Below the pieces are notes generated by a model, which had not been told where the DNA came from, searched no databases, and worked only from the letters and a program-made list of their open reading frames with translations. A DNA stretch of 46,888 bases from a virus. Made by a program: the position numbers and the translations under genes. Below, one piece after another: positions 10,425-39,818 of the stretch. Position 1 is the first letter of the stretch, and the number at the start of each line of letters is the position of its first letter. Where the stretch lies: positions 1 through 46,888 of the IMG/VR virus record IMGVR_UViG_3300032236_000974, one strand, 5' to 3'.

Positions 10425-10616
10425 ATGGAACGCATCGAAGTCAACGTCGAAACCGGCGAAGTGAAGGTCATCCAGTTCACGCCAGAGGAAGAGGCGGCTG
10501 CGCTGGCCTATGCTGCTACTGTACAGGAGCCTGTACAGCCAAAGCCGACGCTGGAAGAGCTACAGGCGCAGCTTGCGACGATTGCAGCGCAGATACAGGC
10601 GCTTGCGAATCCGTAA
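10425..10616 (+). CDS. Small fibre-partner protein, copy 2
   Basis: 63 residues, paralogue of the product at 7358 with the same layout: MERIEVNVETGEVKVIQF, an acidic Glu/Ala stretch, a Pro-rich linker, and a C-terminal heptad-like helix (LEELQAQLATIAAQIQAL). Last gene of the fibre cluster; a hairpin follows at once and transcription converges here with the minus-strand early operon. Confidence 0.65.
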   Translation: MERIEVNVETGEVKVIQFTPEEEAAALAYAATVQEPVQPKPTLEELQAQLATIAAQIQALANP

Positions 10617-10966: not shown

Positions 10967-11463
10967 TTTGCGTATTCCTCATCTATTGGAAAGGGTTTCA
11001 AGACTGAGCTGGGGACGTACCAGCGTTCATCACCAGCACCATGTTTGGCGCGGTATTGTGGCAGCATGATATTCTTAGCGAGTTCCCAGCCCCAGACGCG
11101 ATATGAAGGGCCAACGCCGGTCACCAATACAAATATGTGGTTCGGGTTGTCATCATCATTCAAGCCAAGATCCCAATCGTGCCGGGTGCGTAACCTGACT
11201 TGGATCTTCCCGCCAATGTCCGCCTCTTTGAAGTTGTTCACTCGCGGGTCAAAGTAGCGGTCCATAAACTTTGCAACTACAAGTTCTCCGACAGCGCCTT
11301 GAATGTGCTTCACAAGCGGATCCAGCTTACCGTCTGTGAACTCATTGCCCATCTTGCGATTTTTCTCTTGGGCAGCGTAGTGCCTCACTGTGCCAGTATT
11401 TGCACAATGCAGCATCTCCAGCAGGTTTAGCCTCACCCAATAGGATGTTTGATTGTCTGTCAT
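10963..11463 (-). CDS. PD-(D/E)XK-like nuclease-fold protein (putative)
   Basis: 166 residues from the ATG at 11463, chosen because it overlaps the previous stop in ATGA; the frame extends upstream without support. A central GAVGELVVAKFMDRY helix with Glu60, then EADIGGKIQVR (Asp82, Gln88, Arg90), followed by strands IFVLVTG and YRVWGWE, gives the helix-strand order of PD-(D/E)XK nucleases. The canonical Lys is not obvious (Gln-Val-Arg instead), so activity is unproven. It lies downstream of GcrA in an early operon with recombination genes; a role in DNA processing is possible. Confidence 0.55.
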   Translation of the reverse strand: MTDNQTSYWVRLNLLEMLHCANTGTVRHYAAQEKNRKMGNEFTDGKLDPLVKHIQGAVGELVVAKFMDRYFDPRVNNFKEADIGGKIQVRLRTRHDWDLGLNDDDNPNHIFVLVTGVGPSYRVWGWELAKNIMLPQYRAKHGAGDERWYVPSSVLKPFPIDEEYAK

Positions 11464-11936
11464 GGGGATGTTCCTATCCGAACCAGGGGCGAGTAGCAGA
11501 TCCTCGCATGCTCTTCGCAATACGAGCCTTTCGCCTTTACCTTCCCGCAGAACAGATAGTCAGCAGCTTTGTCTCCGCTGACTACATAACGGCAGGATCT
11601 GGGAGTGAGCCTCTCCAGTCGGATAGGTCTGTCTGCGCCCTTGCCAGGATCTTTATTGGCGAACAGATCTATAATCTCGCATGCCTCTTGTGGTAGATGT
11701 GGGGGCGGAGAGGCAGGCAGCAGTAATGGCTCCGGCTTTGCAGTCTCACGGGGCGGACGCCGCTTTGAAACCTCATTGCGCCTAGACAGATATTCTAGCG
11801 GAACTTTGCCAGCTAAATTCATGCGGTGAAGCTTCCCGGCAATAGCGTTTTTGCTGACGCCGAGATGCATGGCTATTTGTTTGTCGCTGAGACCTTGAGC
11901 CCAAAGTTCCAGCATCGTTTCTGTATTTTCATCCAT
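11460..11936 (-). CDS. gcrA: GcrA-family cell cycle regulator
   Basis: 158 residues from the ATG at 11936. Residues 1-45 form the GcrA N-terminal helix-turn-helix (LWAQGLSDKQIAMHLG, then KNAIAGKLHRMNLAG). After a Pro-rich linker, residues about 114-150 show the family C-terminus: SCRYVV, FCG, YCEEHARICY. In Caulobacter GcrA binds sigma-70 RNA polymerase and activates promoters carrying CcrM-methylated GANTC sites. A phage copy could redirect host cell-cycle transcription or activate phage promoters. The family is essentially alphaproteobacterial, which supports the host assignment. Member of the minus-strand early operon. Confidence 0.85.
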   Translation of the reverse strand: MDENTETMLELWAQGLSDKQIAMHLGVSKNAIAGKLHRMNLAGKVPLEYLSRRNEVSKRRPPRETAKPEPLLLPASPPPHLPQEACEIIDLFANKDPGKGADRPIRLERLTPRSCRYVVSGDKAADYLFCGKVKAKGSYCEEHARICYSPLVRIGTSP

Positions 11937-11955
11937 GATAGTCTCTTGGTTGGGG

Positions 11956-12240
11956 TTACGGGTCAGATCCTTGGTTGGGCACAGGCTCCAAAAGCATTCC
12001 GGCAAACGCAAGATAATTGATGCCGTCTACATAATGATCCTTGTTTCCCCTATCGTCGTCAAGCCTAGCAAGCTTTACAGCGTGAAGGATCAAGGCAATC
12101 TCATGGGGTGTAATTTGTACGCCGCAGATCGTTGACGCAATTACCGCTGCCCGCTCCATGCAGGGGCGGATGTTCCCATATGTGTCATTGCGTTCGCCAG
12201 CTATGTTTAGCGCCTCATTCATTATTTCAGCGTAGTGCAT
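11956..12240 (-). CDS. DUF6378-like phage protein
   Basis: 94 residues. The ATG at 12240 is preferred because AAAGGG lies about 9 bases upstream; a TTG at 12246 overlapping the previous stop is the alternative. The sequence AGERNDTYGNIRPCMERAA, then an ILHAVKLARL helix and a DHYVDGINYLAF segment, matches the all-helical DUF6378 type found widely in phages. Those helices with conserved acidic residues recall all-alpha nucleotide hydrolases, but no activity is established. Operon position is between an unknown gene and gcrA. Confidence 0.7.
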   Translation of the reverse strand: MHYAEIMNEALNIAGERNDTYGNIRPCMERAAVIASTICGVQITPHEIALILHAVKLARLDDDRGNKDHYVDGINYLAFAGMLLEPVPNQGSDP

Positions 12241-20804: not shown

Positions 20805-20984
20805 ATGACGACAGACCACACAAAAGAATTTTGCCGCCTCATCAACAAAGCTGGAACGACGCGCCGTGACATAGCTGACTATCTCGGCATCAAGGAGCGG
20901 TTGTTCTACAAGTGGCAGGCAGGTGAAAGCCCCGTACCAAAAATGGCGTTGATTGCCTTGAAAGTTCTGGTGAAAGAGGTATAG
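20805..20984 (+). CDS. Small HTH regulator, probable autorepressor
   Basis: 59 residues from ATG at 20805 with GGAG 7 bases upstream. Helix-turn-helix: INKAGTTRRDIADYLGIKER then LFYKWQAGESPVPKMALIAL, the size and form of a minimal Cro-type protein. Two palindromic operators sit in its own promoter, and two further copies of the half-site pattern occupy promoters near 26.7 and 26.9 kb, suggesting it controls at least three transcription units. Target assignment is inference. Confidence 0.7.
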   Translation: MTTDHTKEFCRLINKAGTTRRDIADYLGIKERLFYKWQAGESPVPKMALIALKVLVKEV

Positions 20985-20994
20985 TGAAAAGATT

Positions 20995-21025
20995 GAGGCC
21001 CGCCAGCGGCAAACTGGCGAGCCTC
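20995..21025 (+). terminator. Strong hairpin after the HTH gene (attenuator-like)
   Basis: GAGGCCCGCCAG (20995-21006) pairs with CTGGCGAGCCTC (21014-21025): 11 pairs and one mismatch, 7-base loop. It starts 10 bases after the 20984 stop. No U-run follows, so it may pause transcription, need Rho, or protect the upstream message rather than terminate fully. Confidence 0.45.
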
Positions 21026-21061
21026 GTAGCCAAGCTGCGGTGTGGGGCCGCATTGGAACTT

Positions 21062-21076
21062 GAGATAATTTATCTC
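21062..21076. promoter_or_regulatory. Perfect palindrome, possible operator
   Basis: GAGATAA-T-TTATCTC, 7-base arms around one base, lies in the 140-base leader before the initiator-like gene. It is A/T-rich and unlike the ATGCA operators, so a different (host or phage) protein may bind. Could also be a small RNA stem. Confidence 0.4.
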
Positions 21077-21124
21077 GATTTGGTTCTATTTGCAATCCCA
21101 TGCCACAAAATGTGGGATGGTATT

Positions 21125-21451
21125 ATGTCATTTTCAGCCACCAAATGGGTGTGGAAGCAAGATCTCCCCCATGTCGAGAAGATCGTTCTGCTTTGCCTTG
21201 CAGACCGTGCTGACGAAAATCTGAAATGCTGGCCATCCATGGAAACTATCGCAAAAGATTGCGGTATGTGCAGGCGTAGTGTTGTACGGATTATCGAGAA
21301 ACTGAGAGAAAAGAATCTTATCTTCACGACTGGCGGCATGACTTTTCATGGCAAAAGCGTCTACACATACAACTTTGACTTGGCAATGAAACCGCGCAAA
21401 ACACCTTGTGACTTCCAGTCACATCCGGTTGTGACTCATAGTCACATCTAG
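21125..21451 (+). CDS. Replication-initiator-like winged-helix protein
   Basis: 108 residues from ATG at 21125; the frame runs to 20984 but the upstream part overlaps a hairpin and palindrome and lacks protein character. MSFSATKWVWKQDLPHVEKI, LCLADRADENLKCWPSMETI, AKDCGMCRRSVVRIIEKL match the winged-helix N-terminal domain of phage replication proteins (HTH_36 / lambda O-like). The usual C-terminal helicase-recruiting part is missing. The end of the gene carries the first of three iterons (21407-21470), as in lambda where O binds repeats inside its own gene. Helicase and primase genes follow. Confidence 0.65.
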   Translation: MSFSATKWVWKQDLPHVEKIVLLCLADRADENLKCWPSMETIAKDCGMCRRSVVRIIEKLREKNLIFTTGGMTFHGKSVYTYNFDLAMKPRKTPCDFQSHPVVTHSHI

Positions 21452-25148: not shown

Positions 25149-25352
25149 CTAGTGATAGGTGTCCAGCAGCCACTGGCGGGCCGCATTCAGGGTGTGGAAG
25201 TGCTTGATGTAGTTGTGGATACTGACCGCTCGCCAGCAATGTTCGCCCCGTTTCCGGTTGCGAATAGGGGTGATATAGCCTGTGGGCTTTCCGAAATAGG
25301 TAAGCTGCCAGAGTCCGGGTTCAGGTTGCGTGAGTTGGATTGGGCTTGTCAT
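25149..25352 (-). CDS. Hypothetical early protein
   Basis: 67 residues from ATG at 25352, with GGGGGA 5 bases upstream and an ATGA overlap with the methyltransferase-like gene. EPGLWQLTYFGKPTGYITP, HCWRAVSIHN, FHTLNAARQWLL: a short beta strand set and C-terminal helix. Not recognised. Confidence 0.6.
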   Translation of the reverse strand: MTSPIQLTQPEPGLWQLTYFGKPTGYITPIRNRKRGEHCWRAVSIHNYIKHFHTLNAARQWLLDTYH

Positions 25353-25903
25353 ATTGTCCCCCACTGTTGGGCCATTGCTTGTGCTATGCCCTGGTAAGTA
25401 CGGCTTCGCTCTTTCCACCTGTTAGGTCCGGGTGGCATTTTGTGAACACGGGCAACGCGCCCGTCCACGATGTTTGTCGGTTTCAACAGCGGCAAACCTT
25501 TAAGCCAGAGGCATGTCGCCTTGGTTTCTCCGTGCCCAAATTGCCACGGTTGGATAATCTGGTCCGGTTTCCGAATCCGGCTGGATATGATCGAAATCGG
25601 ATTTTCCAGCGCGATTCGTGGTATGGGCGCGTCCAATAGGGTTTGGACAAAATCCAATGCCTCTTGTTGCTCCACTTGTTTGTCCTTGAACCAGCGCGCT
25701 CCGCTGACCGCCAGATGGGTGCAAGGCGGATGAGCGACCATCAGGTCCCAGCCCTGATTCAAGATAGGCAAAACGTCGCCCTGTATATGCCATGCAGGGT
25801 CTGCATCGCATGGTAACAGGTCGCATGACCAAGCGTCATGACCAAGGGCACGGAAAGCATCCCGCACCGTTGCCGAATATTCACAGGCAACTAGAACCCG
25901 CAT
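25349..25903 (-). CDS. DNA cytosine methyltransferase-like protein
   Basis: 184 residues. MRVLVACEYSATVRDAFRAL resembles the SAM-binding motif I region, SCDLLP a motif II-like acidic step, WDLMVAHPPCTHLAVSG the PC loop of motif IV, and ALENPISI the EN(P/V) of motif VI. The layout fits the short C5-methyltransferase-like family frequent in phages; the target-recognition domain is missing, so activity and specificity are uncertain. It could modify phage DNA against host restriction, or be a remnant SAM enzyme. It follows the shared leader element at 25916-25931. Confidence 0.65.
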   Translation of the reverse strand: MRVLVACEYSATVRDAFRALGHDAWSCDLLPCDADPAWHIQGDVLPILNQGWDLMVAHPPCTHLAVSGARWFKDKQVEQQEALDFVQTLLDAPIPRIALENPISIISSRIRKPDQIIQPWQFGHGETKATCLWLKGLPLLKPTNIVDGRVARVHKMPPGPNRWKERSRTYQGIAQAMAQQWGTI

Positions 25904-27758: not shown

Positions 27759-28340
27759 ATGGCTAAAGGCGAAAAGAGATATTCAGGAAAAGAACATAGA
27801 GAACAGCTTCAGGCTATCCTACCTGAAGTAAAAGCCAACAGGGAAGCAAGGGAAAAGGAATACAAGCGGAAACCCTATAGCAGGGAAGCTTTCATGGCTA
27901 TCTGCGAGCGCATGGCGAGAGGCGAAACAACGTCGGATGCGTTGCAAGCGGAGAATCTTGCACCTTCTACATTTTATGGATGGATGGAGCGAGAGGGGGA
28001 AGAATCGGTTGAGTTGCGGAGCATATTCGCGCGCGCGCGTTACGCCCTGGCCGAATCAGCTTTCTCTGAAGCATTGTCTAGGTCTAGGTCATTAATGGAA
28101 GAAACTGATATTGATTCGGCGAGAGTCGGAGCGGCCAGGCTGTTAGTCGATACGCTGAAATGGTATGCGGAGCGCCTGAATCCGGGGCAATATGCGCCAC
28201 AGCGCGATATTCCAGCGCCTGCTACAGTCAATGTGACGAATAACAGTCTTACGATAGACGGGCGCTCGCTTGGTTCGGAACAAAGAGAGAACCTGCGTAC
28301 TATGCTCTTGCAGGCACGAGAACAGATAGAGAACAAATAG
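27759..28340 (+). CDS. Terminase small subunit
   Basis: 193 residues, AAGGGG upstream of ATG. N-terminal charged region, then a homeodomain-like helix-turn-helix: SREAFMAICERMARGETTSD, ALQAENLAPSTFYGWMERE. A helical oligomerisation segment follows (LAESAFSEALSRSRSLME, RLLVDTLKWYAERLNP). Layout and location ahead of the large subunit fit TerS, which recognises the packaging site and feeds DNA to the motor. It is separated from the large subunit by an unusual 1.27 kb segment. Confidence 0.85.
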   Translation: MAKGEKRYSGKEHREQLQAILPEVKANREAREKEYKRKPYSREAFMAICERMARGETTSDALQAENLAPSTFYGWMEREGEESVELRSIFARARYALAESAFSEALSRSRSLMEETDIDSARVGAARLLVDTLKWYAERLNPGQYAPQRDIPAPATVNVTNNSLTIDGRSLGSEQRENLRTMLLQAREQIENK

Positions 28341-28355
28341 AGACCGAACCAAGAA

Positions 28356-28371
28356 TGTTTCACGTGAAACA
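28356..28371. other. parS: parS-like partition site 1
   Basis: Exact TGTTTCACGTGAAACA, the bacterial chromosomal parS consensus bound by ParB; the palindrome extends to 20 bases (28354-28373). Lies 15 bases after the terminase small subunit stop. Confidence 0.8.
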
Positions 28372-28427
28372 TTAGCCACGTTCATGTTAGCGCGGAACAA
28401 ACCGTGAACAAACCAAGAACGACGCAG

Positions 28428-28443
28428 TGTTTCACGTGAAACA
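28428..28443. other. parS: parS-like partition site 2
   Basis: Second exact TGTTTCACGTGAAACA, 72 bases after site 1, in non-coding DNA. Confidence 0.8.
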
Positions 28444-28462
28444 TACTTGAGTCGTTCAACAA

Positions 28463-28478
28463 TGTTTCACGTGAAACA
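28463..28478. other. parS: parS-like partition site 3
   Basis: Third exact TGTTTCACGTGAAACA, 35 bases after site 2. The flanks of sites 1 and 3 are similar (a GCCACG-C/T-TC block follows each), hinting at local duplication. Confidence 0.8.
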
Positions 28479-28748
28479 TAGGCCACGCTCAAGGTACCCT
28501 GATCAGACCCCCGACTACCCACCTGTCCACAAAAGGCCCCCGGGGGTTTAGGTACCAAAGCCCACTCTCGCAATACGGGCTATACATGGCAGTTTATACC
28601 CCTCCCCCCATACAGGTACCCCTACCCCCCCGTGTCATAGGTACCGTCATGGGCATGGGTATGTGTTTACCTCCCCTTTATAGGTAGGTACTAAGTATGG
28701 GTAGTTGCTGCGTCCCGACCAAAGAACGTGTGCGGTTTTTTAAAAACC
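28479..28748. other. Non-coding GGTACC-rich segment
   Basis: No credible gene on either strand. GGTACC occurs at 28493, 28551, 28615 and 28640, and once more at 28786 inside the next gene. C-runs, short A/T stretches and a GGTTTTT-T-AAAAACC palindrome (28734-28748) fill the rest. Beside the terminase small subunit gene such a segment could hold the packaging site (cos/pac), but no direct evidence exists. Confidence 0.5.
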
Positions 28749-28946
28749 CTAACCGGTCACTTCTGGTTCGGGCTCCGGCCCTTCAGGTACCGGCATCCAG
28801 TGGCTAGGGTCTATGACCATGTTGTAGCCCAGCACATTCCAGGTCCCGTCTTCCGGTTCCCAATATGCCATCCAAACAAAGCCGTTATCCCAAACCAAGA
28901 TTTCGCTGTCTTCCTTGGGTGCGGTGTCAATAGGTTGCCAATTCAT
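28749..28946 (-). CDS. DUF551-family protein, copy 3
   Basis: 65 residues from ATG at 28946, with AGGAGA 6 bases upstream; a longer frame would run into the tRNA gene and is rejected. The domain runs from WQPIDTAPKEDSEILVW to HWMPVPEGP, with a Glu/Pro-rich tail. It is the only protein gene read against the late operon in this region and follows tRNA-Gln on the same strand, so the two may be cotranscribed. Confidence 0.75.
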   Translation of the reverse strand: MNWQPIDTAPKEDSEILVWDNGFVWMAYWEPEDGTWNVLGYNMVIDPSHWMPVPEGPEPEPEVTG

Positions 28947-28960
28947 GCCGGTCTCCTGTT

Positions 28961-29036
28961 TGGTTCGGGGTGATGGACTCGAACCACCAACCTGCGCAGT
29001 CAAAGTGCGTTATTCTACCAATTGAACTAACCCCGA
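28961..29036 (-). tRNA. tRNA-Gln (anticodon TTG)
   Basis: 76 bases with encoded CCA. Acceptor stem TCGGGGT / ACCCCGA is fully paired; D stem GTTC / GAAT; anticodon loop CTTTGAC gives TTG; T arm GGTGG-TTCGAGT-CCATC is intact. The anticodon stem has one A-C mismatch at its first pair. The discriminator base is A. It reads CAA and, by wobble, CAG, which are abundant in the Gln-rich virion genes. Confidence 0.9.
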
Positions 29037-29116
29037 TCAAAAACCTGAAGTCCGTTGCCCCTTTTGCAGAGCTTCGTGGCTAATCTCGGCACGGACAAAC
29101 ACCAAGCGAATAGGAA

Positions 29117-29132
29117 TGTTTCACGGGAAACA
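29117..29132. other. parS: parS-like partition site 4 (one mismatch)
   Basis: TGTTTCACGGGAAACA differs from the parS consensus at one base (T to G at position 10). Located between tRNA-Gln and the next plus-strand gene, about 650 bases from site 3. Confidence 0.65.
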
Positions 29133-29398: not shown

Positions 29399-29610
29399 CA
29401 AGTGGATTGTACTCACTCAAAGAACGATACGGCCTGGCTGGGGTCTACCTCCAATTAATGCCCGTGCTCCGTGCTCTCGAAAAAGAAAACGGTCAACAAG
29501 AAGAGAAAAAAGTTGCCGCCATGGAATCTGTGCGGTGGCTCATAGAGCAATTGATTAGTGAAAACAAACAGCTAAACGATCAACTTGAATCGTTGGATAA
29601 GGTAGAATGA
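29395..29610 (+). CDS. Helical protein ahead of terminase large subunit
   Basis: 71 residues, coupled at both ends by ATGA overlaps. Helical with a C-terminal heptad pattern (VRWLIEQLISENKQLNDQLE). Possibly an accessory of the packaging motor by position, but no family recognised. Confidence 0.65.
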   Translation: MTSGLYSLKERYGLAGVYLQLMPVLRALEKENGQQEEKKVAAMESVRWLIEQLISENKQLNDQLESLDKVE

Positions 29611-31328
29611 CAACCCTCAACCTTGATGGCCAGCAAATTGATATTGAAAAAGCTCTGCTTGAGTTAGACCGAGCCGATTGCGAGGAAAGCCTATACACGT
29701 TCCTCAAGCATGCATGGAAATACATCGATGCCTCGCCCTTCACAGAAGGTTGGCCTATTGAGGCAATTGCTGAACATCTACAAGCCGTGGCTGACGGCGA
29801 GATCCGCCGCCTGATCATCAACATCCCGCCCCGCATGGGTAAGTCGTCTATTACTTCGTGCGCGTTTCCCGCCTGGGTATGGGCGCAATCTCAAATTAGT
29901 CCTACTTCTGGTCCGGGGGTACAATTCCTCCACGCCTCATATGCCCAGCAGCTTTCATTGCGCGACTCAGTCAAGTGCCGCCGCCTCATTGAATCGCCAT
30001 GGTATCGTGAATTATGGGGTGACCGGTTTAAGCTGACATCCGACCAGAACACTAAAGGCAGGTTTGACAATGACAAAAATGGCTCGCGTCTCTCTACCTC
30101 GGTGGGATCTGCGCTTACCGGGGAGGGTGGTTCGATCATTGTCGTCGATGACCCTAATGCGGCGCAAGAAGCTTTCTCCGAAGCTACCATTGCCAGCACG
30201 ATTGAATGGTGGGACTCTGCGCTCTCAACCCGCCTTAACGACCCCAAAACCGGCGCATTCGTGGTCATTCAACAGAGGCTTTCAGAAGAAGACCTTACCG
30301 GGCACATTCTTTCAAAAGACCAGGGTGAATGGACGCATCTATGCTTGCCGATGAGATACGAGTGGCAACGCCACAGCGTTACGTCTATCGGGTGGAATGA
30401 TCCTCGTGGTTTGGATGCAGATGCCGAACCACTAGTTGAGGTAACCCGTTACGGGGAACGTATCCCTGTTAGCCCGGAAGCCCAAGTAGAACTGGAGGAC
30501 AGGGAAGGTCTGCTCCTCTGGCCAGATCGTTTTGGTGAGGAAGAAGTCAATATCCTAGAACGCCAATTAGGACCATGGGCAGCAGCCGGTCAGCTTCAAC
30601 AGCGTCCCGAACCAAAAGGTGGCGGCATCATCAAGCGCGAATGGTGGCAACCATGGGAGGCAACAAACTTCCCCGGGATGGATCTCATCATCGCTACACT
30701 GGATACCGCCTACACCACCAAAACAGAAAACGACCCGTCCGCCATGACAGTCTGGGGCGTGTTCTCTGACAACAGTATGGTGCAAGCGCCCCACCACGCC
30801 ATATCGCGAGATGGTGCCCGGTCTGAATACACCCGCCAGTATTCTGAAATTGCGCCTAAAGTAATGCTCATGTATGCCTGGCAGGGGCGCTATGAACTTC
30901 ATGACCTAGTATCTAAAGTATCCGAAACATGCCGCAAGTTAAAAGTAGACACATTGCTAATAGAAAACAAAGCCGCGGGCCACTCTGTAGCCCAAGAAAT
31001 ACGTAGAATGTATGGGCATGAAAAGTTTGGGGTGCATATGTTTGACCCTAAAAGCCAAGATAAACTTGCTAGATTGTATTCTGTACAACATTTATTTGCT
31101 GAAGGCATAGTATATGCGCCACTTAAACAGTGGGCAGAGATGGTTATTACTCAAGTTGCGCAATTTCCTAAAGCAAAACATGACGATTTGGTTGATACCG
31201 TCAGCATGGCTATGCGGCATTTGCGTGAAACTGGCGCTATCATGCGCGGTGAGGAGTTCCAATCTGACCTGACGGACAGCATGGCGTTCAAGGGTAACAA
31301 CCAGTGGCAAGCACTCTATCCAATTTAA
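29607..31328 (+). CDS. Terminase large subunit
   Basis: 573 residues. ATPase domain: Walker A-like IPPRMGKS at 73-80 and Walker B IIVVDDP with Asp181-Asp182. RNase H-like nuclease domain: LDTAYTTKTENDPSA around 368, LIENKAAGHSVAQEI, and KHDDLVDTVSMAMRHL near the end supplying acidic residues. It cuts concatemeric DNA and pumps it into the prohead through the portal encoded downstream. Coupled to the preceding small gene. Confidence 0.95.
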   Translation: MTTLNLDGQQIDIEKALLELDRADCEESLYTFLKHAWKYIDASPFTEGWPIEAIAEHLQAVADGEIRRLIINIPPRMGKSSITSCAFPAWVWAQSQISPTSGPGVQFLHASYAQQLSLRDSVKCRRLIESPWYRELWGDRFKLTSDQNTKGRFDNDKNGSRLSTSVGSALTGEGGSIIVVDDPNAAQEAFSEATIASTIEWWDSALSTRLNDPKTGAFVVIQQRLSEEDLTGHILSKDQGEWTHLCLPMRYEWQRHSVTSIGWNDPRGLDADAEPLVEVTRYGERIPVSPEAQVELEDREGLLLWPDRFGEEEVNILERQLGPWAAAGQLQQRPEPKGGGIIKREWWQPWEATNFPGMDLIIATLDTAYTTKTENDPSAMTVWGVFSDNSMVQAPHHAISRDGARSEYTRQYSEIAPKVMLMYAWQGRYELHDLVSKVSETCRKLKVDTLLIENKAAGHSVAQEIRRMYGHEKFGVHMFDPKSQDKLARLYSVQHLFAEGIVYAPLKQWAEMVITQVAQFPKAKHDDLVDTVSMAMRHLRETGAIMRGEEFQSDLTDSMAFKGNNQWQALYPI

Positions 31329-35762: not shown

Positions 35763-37808
35763 ATGGCAAAGCGCAACGCTATTGTTGAGGCTCTGCGTTT
35801 AGCCCGCAAACAGTATGCGGTTGGCGGTAGCCCGTTTTACCAACAGCCCATCTATGACCAAATGCAACGTGAAATTGATGCTTGGAAAAACAAAAAACTT
35901 CCAAATATTGAACCTTTACGTGTAGACAGAATTGCGCCCCCACCAGGCGGTTCTGCGCTGCAAAATGCAACTCCCCATGATTTAGGCGGATATGCGCCGG
36001 TAAATGTACCTGCTTCAACAACACCCATACTTGATGGGGGTGGTGGAGGAGACGGATTATCTGGGACAGATATTTCTAGTGCTACTTCTACTCCATCAAC
36101 GGCGATGTCATCTACGTCTACTGGACCATCTGCGCCCGCTGGCGCAACACCGTCTGGTCCGGGATTTTCATTTACGGGGGCGCCTATTGGTGCGGTAGAA
36201 GCTTACGATCTCCCGGCTCCGACAACTGCTGCCCCTGCCCCCGCCGCTCCAAATGCCGATGCTACATTTGCAGCAAATGACCCATTTTCCAATCTTGATC
36301 AAACGGGATTAACCACTGGACCAAATAATGCTGCTGCCAATCAGGCGGCGCTTGGTGCCCAAGTTGGAGCACAAGTCGGCCAAGCCCTTTCCGCACAACA
36401 AGCAGCAAATTTAGCGCAAACAAATTTTGGTGCACAAGTAGGAACACAGGTTGGCAAGGCGCTCAACACCATTGGCGCAAACCCGGCTACCACTGTCTCT
36501 GCAACGCCTGCTGCTGCTATTGCCTCAAGCGCAACGCCTTCCGCTAGTCAAGCACTGGCTGCGGCAATAGCGGCTCAACAAGGTCAATATGCCGCCAATC
36601 AAGCGCAATTTGATGTTATGGGCAACGTAACAGCGCCAGGAGTTGCGTCAAAGGTAAGTGTGCTTCCGTCTCCAACGCCGGGCAAGCAGGCTACAACACC
36701 CGGAGTTCAGCAGCCATCTTTTGTTGGCGCTCCTTTAGCTACCGCTGCACAATTGCAGGATAACCCTGACATTACAGGCCCCACTATGGCTGGGCTTTCT
36801 TATAGTCAGGCTGCGCAAGATCAAACAATTAGTGGAGAAACTGGGACATTTAATGCTGCTACCCCAGAAGCATCCAGCGCACCTGCTGCTGCGCCTTCTA
36901 GTGCGCCTGCTGCCGCTCCATCTGCTCCATCTGCGCCGTCCGCGCCCTCTGCTCCATCTGCGCCTGCGGCAGCGCCTACTACATCTACAAGCCCACTGGG
37001 GATTAGTGTTCAAGAAGCAGATCCTGCCAACGCAGACTTGGCAAATGCGTTAGCTGAAGCCCAAGCCCAGGCGGCTGCTGAAGCTGCTTCGGCAGTTGAT
37101 TCTTCTGCTACGGCAGATAATTCATCTTCCCCTGGAGATGCTGAAGGTGGTTCTTTTGGAGGAGATGGATCGTCTGCGGGCGGTGAAGGCGGCGGTGGGA
37201 TGGGCGGATCTGGTGATTCCGGCGGTGGTTCTAGTGGTGATGGATCGTCAGGCGGCGGATCTGGTGGAGACGGCGGCGGTGGCGGCGGCGGTGATGGTGG
37301 CGGTGGAGGCGGTGGAGACGGCGGCGGTGGCGGCGGCGGTGAAAAACGTGGCGGCTTTATCCGACCCAAACATCATTCCCACCAAATGGTTGATAAAGCT
37401 TTAAAACTTACAGAACGCAAAAAAGGCGGGAAGATATCTGCGTACCCGTTAAAACCTGACAATGAAAAAAGAAAACACGCTGGTTTTTCTGAAACTGGCG
37501 GTAAAATGAAATGGATGAATCCAGATGACTTTTTGGGCAAAGCTCAAAAAATGCAAATGGATAAAGAAGACAAAAAATCCATTAAAAAATTTAAAAAGAA
37601 AATCAAAAAAGGTAAAGATTTGAACCCGCTTGCGTTGTATCCAAGTGGTGGCCAAGACGGTCGCCACCGCGCAACTGCGGCTAAAGAACTGGGAATAGAC
37701 AAAGTTCCGGTCATTACTTGGCCCGGGAAGAATAACGGTGGGTCTATTACAGACCGCGCTCTTATGGTAATGTCTAAATCGGTTAATCACCAACGGGGAC
37801 GCCCGTAA
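35763..37808 (+). CDS. Low-complexity virion protein with ParB/Srx-like C-terminal domain
   Basis: 681 residues. Ala/Pro/Ser-rich through ~430, with a SAPSAPSAPSAP run near 385, then a Gly/Asp tract of repeating GGDGGGGGG near 500-530, then EKRGG. Residues about 575-655 look like a ParB N-terminal/sulfiredoxin-fold domain: MNPDDFLGKA, LNPLALYP, then GGQDGRHRATAAKELGIDKV and PVITW, which mirrors the ParB box II. No helix-turn-helix follows, so it should not read parS itself. Ends with NNGGSITDRALMVMSK. Likely virion-packaged; enzymatic (CTPase-like or phosphotransfer) activity is untested. Confidence 0.6.
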   Translation: MAKRNAIVEALRLARKQYAVGGSPFYQQPIYDQMQREIDAWKNKKLPNIEPLRVDRIAPPPGGSALQNATPHDLGGYAPVNVPASTTPILDGGGGGDGLSGTDISSATSTPSTAMSSTSTGPSAPAGATPSGPGFSFTGAPIGAVEAYDLPAPTTAAPAPAAPNADATFAANDPFSNLDQTGLTTGPNNAAANQAALGAQVGAQVGQALSAQQAANLAQTNFGAQVGTQVGKALNTIGANPATTVSATPAAAIASSATPSASQALAAAIAAQQGQYAANQAQFDVMGNVTAPGVASKVSVLPSPTPGKQATTPGVQQPSFVGAPLATAAQLQDNPDITGPTMAGLSYSQAAQDQTISGETGTFNAATPEASSAPAAAPSSAPAAAPSAPSAPSAPSAPSAPAAAPTTSTSPLGISVQEADPANADLANALAEAQAQAAAEAASAVDSSATADNSSSPGDAEGGSFGGDGSSAGGEGGGGMGGSGDSGGGSSGDGSSGGGSGGDGGGGGGGDGGGGGGGDGGGGGGGEKRGGFIRPKHHSHQMVDKALKLTERKKGGKISAYPLKPDNEKRKHAGFSETGGKMKWMNPDDFLGKAQKMQMDKEDKKSIKKFKKKIKKGKDLNPLALYPSGGQDGRHRATAAKELGIDKVPVITWPGKNNGGSITDRALMVMSKSVNHQRGRP

Positions 37809-39199: not shown

Positions 39200-39415
39200 A
39201 TGGCGACAACATACCAAGCGTATTACCAATATGAGTTGAAGAAGCTTCTCAACTCCGAAATCGAGCGTATTAAAGAGATGCTCGTAAGCTCTTATCAAAT
39301 AGAGGGTTTTGACTTTTCAGCTTACCGACACCACGTTGGTAAGATTGAAGGACTTCGTATAGCTTTAGAGCTATGCGATGAGGCGGACGCCATTGTAAAT
39401 GGCAAGGAAAAGTAG
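39200..39415 (+). CDS. Small late protein
   Basis: 71 residues from ATG at 39200 with TAGGGGGC upstream; the longer frame overlaps the hairpin. YQAYYQYELKKLLNSEIERI, then HHVGKIEGLRIALELCDEAD: two helices. Resembles small helical proteins encoded before scaffold genes; role unknown. Confidence 0.65.
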   Translation: MATTYQAYYQYELKKLLNSEIERIKEMLVSSYQIEGFDFSAYRHHVGKIEGLRIALELCDEADAIVNGKEK

Positions 39416-39425
39416 GGGGATATAC

Positions 39426-39818
39426 ATGCCTTTTATGACGATGCAGCACGAAGTAGACCCAGCAGAAACTATTAAAACTGAGATGGGGGACATTTCTACT
39501 GTCGAAGTGTTCAATAATCAGTTGTTGGTGGCGGTTTATATTCGCCCCCAAAAAACTAAAAGCGGGATCATTTTGACCAGCCAGACCACGGACGAGGACA
39601 AGTTCCAATCAAAAGTCGGACTTGTCGTCAAGAAGGGCCCTCAAGCATTCAAGGATTCTACTGGCGAGTGGTTCAGTGGCTTGGAGATCAATGAAGGGGA
39701 TTGGATCGTGTTTCGCCCATCTGATGGGTGGAGCATTACGGTCAACAATGTGCTTTGCCGCATGATCGAAGATGTGAACATCAAGGGCCGAGTCGACCAG
39801 CCTGATCGTGTTTGGTAA
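39426..39818 (+). CDS. GroES-like co-chaperonin
   Basis: 130 residues from ATG at 39426 (GGGGGA upstream). From residue 28 the order matches Cpn10: NNQLLVAVYIRPQKTKSGII (core strand then a mobile-loop-like K-T-K-S-G-I-I-L), VGLVVKKGP, INEGDWIVF, ITVNNVLCRMIEDVNI. GroES uses this fold to cap GroEL; T4 gp31 is a phage example needed to fold its capsid protein. Location just ahead of scaffold and capsid genes fits that role. The N-terminal 25 residues are extra. Confidence 0.65.
   Translation: MPFMTMQHEVDPAETIKTEMGDISTVEVFNNQLLVAVYIRPQKTKSGIILTSQTTDEDKFQSKVGLVVKKGPQAFKDSTGEWFSGLEINEGDWIVFRPSDGWSITVNNVLCRMIEDVNIKGRVDQPDRVW

Follow-up and report, generated by a model that had tools for sequence, protein, structure and literature searches.

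Why would a bacteriophage keep sequences of the kind at which bacterial chromosomes are partitioned, and which protein would read them? The question is raised by a locus between the two terminase genes of an environmental phage, represented by a 46,888-nucleotide stretch of DNA (IMG/VR virus record IMGVR_UViG_3300032236_000974) that was analysed at its full length and is hereafter called the window.

The sites and their surroundings

The gene for the terminase small subunit TerS, of the Sf6 type (27759..28340, + strand; PF20901, E 2.6e-15; phrog_1482), is separated by a 1.27 kb gap from that for the large subunit TerL (29607..31328, + strand; phrog_38, E 4.9e-87; PF17289), and all four parS sites of the window lie in this gap. 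Three are exact copies of the 16-bp palindrome TGTTTCACGTGAAACA, at 28356..28371 (starting 16 bp past the TerS stop), 28428..28443 and 28463..28478, and the fourth, parS-like site, at 29117..29132, is TGTTTCACGGGAAACA, a variant with one mismatch that recurs in relatives; none is assigned a strand. A scan of the window for TGTTTCACGTGAAACA with up to 3 mismatches recovers these four sites, the same as in the original prediction, and no others. In dinucleotide shuffles of the window, such matches number 0.24 on average and never reach four, in agreement with the earlier judgement that the cluster is unlikely to have arisen by chance. By sequence, these are sites of the chromosomal parS type, that is, the palindrome or a near variant of it. 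The consensus of the Noc-binding site (NBS) is TATTTCCCGGGAAATA; the exact copies differ from it at four positions and the variant at 29117 is only a partial hybrid, so that identity was rejected. Among the 12 one-mismatch sites in the corresponding gaps of the clade described below, 8 are TGTTTCACGGGAAACA and 2 more are its reverse complement (loci L005, L007, L017, L018 and L036); the variant recurs as though it were a retained, perhaps weaker, form of parS.

The sites had been placed in non-coding DNA, and all four indeed fall outside genes, but the gap as a whole is not gene-free: it holds a DUF551-like small ORF (28752..28946, - strand; translated, and matched to PF04448 in the scan of window ORFs) and a tRNA-Gln(TTG) gene (28961..29036, - strand), the only conserved RNA detected when the gap was searched. 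A second repeated cis motif, AGGTACC, is present in five copies (28492..28791, no strand) and is strongly over-represented in the gaps of the clade (49 copies where about 1 would be expected, in 15 of 35 loci), sharing the gap with C-runs and CTAACTAAAC repeats; all these repeats are possibly iterons of an origin or a pac site. AGGTACC repeats are found in a locus devoid of parS (L178) as well.

Conservation and seat of the sites

Relatives of the window phage, about 150 loci, were collected by TerL and portal searches of IMG/VR, and the virus family that carries the sites consists of freshwater bacterial viruses. A scripted scan recovered the 16-mer from almost all close relatives, and its position was invariably between TerS and TerL, the very place where the original prediction suggested looking for it; the prediction thus withstands the first of its own refutation criteria. 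On the TerL tree, the window belongs to a 33-row clade in which 29 rows have sites, none lacks them and 4 have upstream DNA that is too short, that is, the sites are present in 29/29 assessable members. Among close members, the first site lies 1-476 bp past the TerS stop. In the wider family, where this distance is 116-1504 bp, 44 rows have sites and 16 do not, with 10 label changes on the tree compared to a shuffled mean of 14.3. One close relative (G050; TerL 81% identical, 57.6-kb contig) has no parS site, which indicates that the trait is dispensable and can be lost. A cluster of this kind is lacking in the nearest named phages (the complete MW202675, CRP-901, GB2A, DSL-LC04 and others), and HTVC027P has one one-mismatch site.

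The manner in which the sites are conserved is telling. Across the members with TerL at least 79% identical, after removal of four duplicate loci, the 72.6 kb of gap DNA contains 94 exact and 12 one-mismatch parS sites, and none with 2, 3 or 4 mismatches. The 456 kb of non-gap DNA of the clade contains two exact sites, both in a single contig (L011) on which TerS was not found and the gap was cut off arbitrarily at 3.6 kb upstream of TerL. The flanks of the 88 distinct exact-site contexts are approximately random (median identity of 28% across 50 flanking bases), except that the palindrome tends mildly to be preceded by A and followed by T; TerS itself is often just 30-60% identical among the same phages, and the spacing between sites varies freely. 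Perfect sites, random flanks and shifting spacing together suggest a short protein-binding site that is subject to strong selection and positional turnover, and the latter two features rule out the explanation that the site is kept merely through conservation of the surrounding DNA. Judged from these sequence comparisons, it is their function that has preserved the parS sites, and not mere inheritance of the DNA.

These observations bear directly on the most conservative explanation, namely, that the sites were acquired from a host origin region, or arose by chance, and have no current role. The patchy distribution in the wider family is what could be expected of such relics. Relics would decay, though, and would leave behind the sites with 2-4 mismatches that are missing from the gaps, whereas the actual sites stay perfect despite the reshuffling of their spacing. 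Recurrence by chance was examined in IMG/VR as a whole: pairs of exact parS sites 15-45 bp apart occur in 38 stretches and pairs 46-76 bp apart in 26, against 0 pairs for two control palindromes of equal length in the same collection. Contradicted already by the conservation data, an idle relic is extremely improbable.

Outside the clade, 32/34 contigs with parS pairs lack ParB_N; the lineage counts in such comparisons are approximate, as the contigs include fragments and, in a few cases, possibly host DNA. Three unrelated IMG/VR contigs (L098, L112 and L118) carry five to eight parS or variant sites each, likewise without ParB_N, and in L104 the sites are in the neighbourhood of a phi29-type connector.

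The location of the sites invites a different interpretation, in which ParB clamps would mark, fold or shield the start of packaging, hold concatemers, or separate early from late transcription in the manner of a roadblock or insulator. The sites remain close to terS even when kilobases of genes intervene before terL (L186, L032 and L189), and parS is found within about 1 kb of TerL in two other terminase lineages (L100/L107/L285/L287 and L101/L108/L091). This fixed seat after terS, the similar seats in other lineages and the AGGTACC repeats, of a kind that could belong to a pac or origin region, are why we keep a packaging- or origin-linked role under consideration. In contrast, more distant relatives whose terminase is of the same type package without parS; the gap is a rare non-coding space, such that the location may be simply permissive; and in other phages (L088, L092 and L117) the sites adjoin endolysin genes. 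Furthermore, we know of no phage packaging system that uses ParB, and on balance we consider a role in packaging or the late region rather improbable.

Candidate readers and the probable host

The protein that reads the sites could, in principle, be encoded by the phage. No ParB_N (PF02195) and no ParA-type ATPase (PF13614) was detected in 13 family contigs, including those of 61 kb and 58 kb, and neither HTH_ParB (PF17762) nor tyrosine integrase (PF00589) in 10 of these 13; the same searches produce matches in control genomes. The family contigs are classed as linear in IMG/VR, so that the completeness of each is unproven, and the window itself is possibly incomplete, but the longer relatives are equally devoid of ParA and ParB. 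The prediction that the window encodes no ParB with a helix-turn-helix thus withstands searches with both PF02195 and PF17762, and the proposed look for parA and parB elsewhere revealed no par genes in any family genome tested. With PF02195, PF13614 and PF17762 all absent, a ParABS of the phage's own, as in a self-contained phage-plasmid, was rejected. The accompanying suggestion of a plasmid-like prophage has indirect support only, from the lack of a tyrosine integrase in 10 clade contigs; neither a plasmid Rep nor a maintenance module was recognised.

Two genes of the structural region deserve mention on their own account. One encodes a GroES-like co-chaperonin (39399-39818, + strand), and the other a 681-aa glycine/alanine-rich protein (35763-37808, + strand) with a weak ParB-like match to phrog_1033 that covers 59 residues (about 598-656) and includes a GRHR-type motif. 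This short match near the C-terminus comes with no Pfam match, and on these grounds the protein is not taken to be the reader of the sites.

A more general possibility is that the palindrome is recognised by some other DNA-binding protein of the phage, with the HTH_36 protein encoded at 20984-21451 as one candidate late regulator or origin-binding protein. HTH proteins (GcrA and HTH_36) are present throughout the clade, as this would require, but their identity from one member to another is only 26-47%, in contrast to an invariant site. In a comparison of seven relatives, just two of them site-less, no window protein was both common to all genomes with sites and absent from those without. A phage reader would also make the match to the parS consensus a coincidence, with a probability of about 4^-8 for a given 16-bp palindrome, and the same 16-mer is common to unrelated phages. 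Such a reader is therefore very unlikely. Because no phage ParA or ParB was found and no window protein was found to track the sites strictly, host ParB is most likely the protein that binds them. Given that the sites are present in a family of phages without a reader of their own, it is very probable that these phages either make use of the chromosome segregation machinery of the host or interfere with it.

Which host this might be is suggested by a GcrA-type cell-cycle regulator encoded in the window (11460..12011, - strand; PF07750, E 1.1e-25), which matches Caulobacter crescentus GcrA (7ye1, E 1.1e-18) across nearly its full length. GcrA is encoded also in six long family contigs (G001, G003, G047, G048, G050 and G053) and in Caulobacter phage GB2A; among the larger family contigs, the GcrA proteins are merely 26-35% identical. 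In 14 control genomes, PF07750 matched Caulobacter and, unexpectedly, Sulfolobus, but no others. Since GcrA is widely conserved across Alphaproteobacteria (PMC9437464), an alphaproteobacterium is the best inference for the host from this one gene family, and GcrA is possibly not only a clue to the host but also a functional partner. The Alphaproteobacteria use the same sequence on their chromosomes: the identical 16-mer is present in 58/76 genomes, mostly in 1-3 copies, compared to zero matches for a reversed-control 16-mer, and in one example it adjoins a gene matching solved ParA structures. Host assignment through metagenomic bins was rejected, the bins being mutually contradictory (betaproteobacterial for L135, Paceibacterota for L136 and Methylococcales for L137); these wider-family phage contigs were probably mis-binned into bacterial MAGs.

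A separate observation concerns the motif CCWGG, which occurs once each in G001 and G003 (about 155 and 136 expected). The window, by comparison, has 71 copies, with about 102 expected, and encodes a cytosine methyltransferase of phrog_757 (25349-25903, - strand). Restriction avoidance in G001 and G003, as opposed to self-methylation in the window, is a possible explanation.

Possible roles of host-type centromere sites on a phage, and known systems

If host ParB binds the sites, the partition or positioning of the phage chromosome appears to be the leading candidate for the benefit, given the precedents of phi29 and SGI1 discussed below. We tentatively favour a scenario, to which we attach a probability just short of even, in which the phage borrows the host centromere: the two to five parS copies directly downstream of terS would load the chromosomal ParB-CTP clamps of the host, and ParB would link the phage chromosome, which would not be integrated, to host ParA, polar anchors and SMC. 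During the delay of lysis, the phage DNA would thereby share the positioning and partition of the host origin. The waiting, extrachromosomal state that this scenario implies would be one of lytic deferment or a carrier state. Several points count against the borrowed centromere: a plasmid Rep or maintenance module was not identified, the close relative G050 does without the sites, partition does not require a position beside terS, and CtrA sites, the known deferment switch of such phages, are absent from the window (no TTAA-N7-TTAA operator). In a broader version, which we regard as somewhat unlikely, phages that lack par genes would have evolved centromere capture repeatedly and as a general strategy, frequently placing the sites at the terminase genes. 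In the clade of the window, the captured centromere would act jointly with GcrA to couple the phage chromosome tightly to the cell cycle of the host, and ParB-dependent packaging, or the loading of SMC in the lytic phase, may be part of this.

The main rival to partition is titration, whereby the hundreds of parS sites of a replicating phage would draw ParB off the few chromosomal sites and thus disturb segregation and division or free ParA and SMC to the advantage of the phage. Host chromosomes usually carry 1-3 exact copies, a number that a single phage genome already equals, and the parS mimics of SGI1 both stabilise this element and, depending on their dose, expel its helper (PMC10954446). 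A decoy could be placed anywhere in the genome, whereas the sites are confined to one locus after terS, and because ParB spreads and recycles from few sites, titration would be inefficient until late in infection; we judge it unlikely.

The borrowed centromere, if real, would provide a mechanism for the persistence and inheritance of unintegrated phage genomes in the absence of lysogeny, which the literature on lytic deferment and pseudolysogeny leaves unexplained, and would make ParB a phage target. More broadly, the data suggest that a clade of environmental phages, along with several unrelated lineages, exploits the host segregation machinery by means of DNA alone, a claim for whose direct test a short DNA fragment and ParB proteins that are already well studied would suffice.

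The underlying principle, namely, the exploitation of a resident ParB by an element that lacks parAB, is already known. In the literature searched, which covered few subscription papers, no phage other than phi29 was found to be described with a clade-wide, selectively kept cluster of chromosomal parS beside its terminase genes, and this use of host ParB apparently has not been reported for phages of this kind. Phage-plasmids of the P1, N15 and mycobacteriophage RedRock type share with the window phage a centromere on the phage genome, but encode their own ParABS, whereas no ParA or ParB was found in the family of the window phage.

A closer analogue is phi29, in which spore entrapment depends on host Spo0J (ParB) (Meijer 2005, cited in PMC9437464), with host ParB proposed, in the account given there, as the carrier of the phage genome. 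Like phi29, the window phage is of the virulent type, with no integrase, and has parS-type sites and no parB of its own. The four TGTTTCACGTGGAACA copies of phi29 (at 10445, 15903, 17243 and 18760) are, however, scattered over the genome and its host sporulates, whereas in the unrelated window phage the sites are clustered after terS and the host is, by inference, alphaproteobacterial.

SGI1, which also lacks parAB and carries parS copies, is stabilised by the ParABS of its helper, another replicon that is destabilised and expelled in the process (PMC10954446). Unlike the window phage with its chromosomal consensus, SGI1 is an integrative mobilizable element that mimics the parS of an IncC plasmid.

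Finally, for alphaproteobacterial phages, CtrA-dependent lytic deferment has been proposed, with the survival of the phage chromosome in the meantime left open (PMC9437464). These phages and the window phage appear to be similarly wired to the host cell-cycle machinery, the former through CtrA operators and the latter putatively through GcrA and parS, and it is this gap in the deferment account, the survival of the waiting phage chromosome, that a borrowed host centromere would fit.
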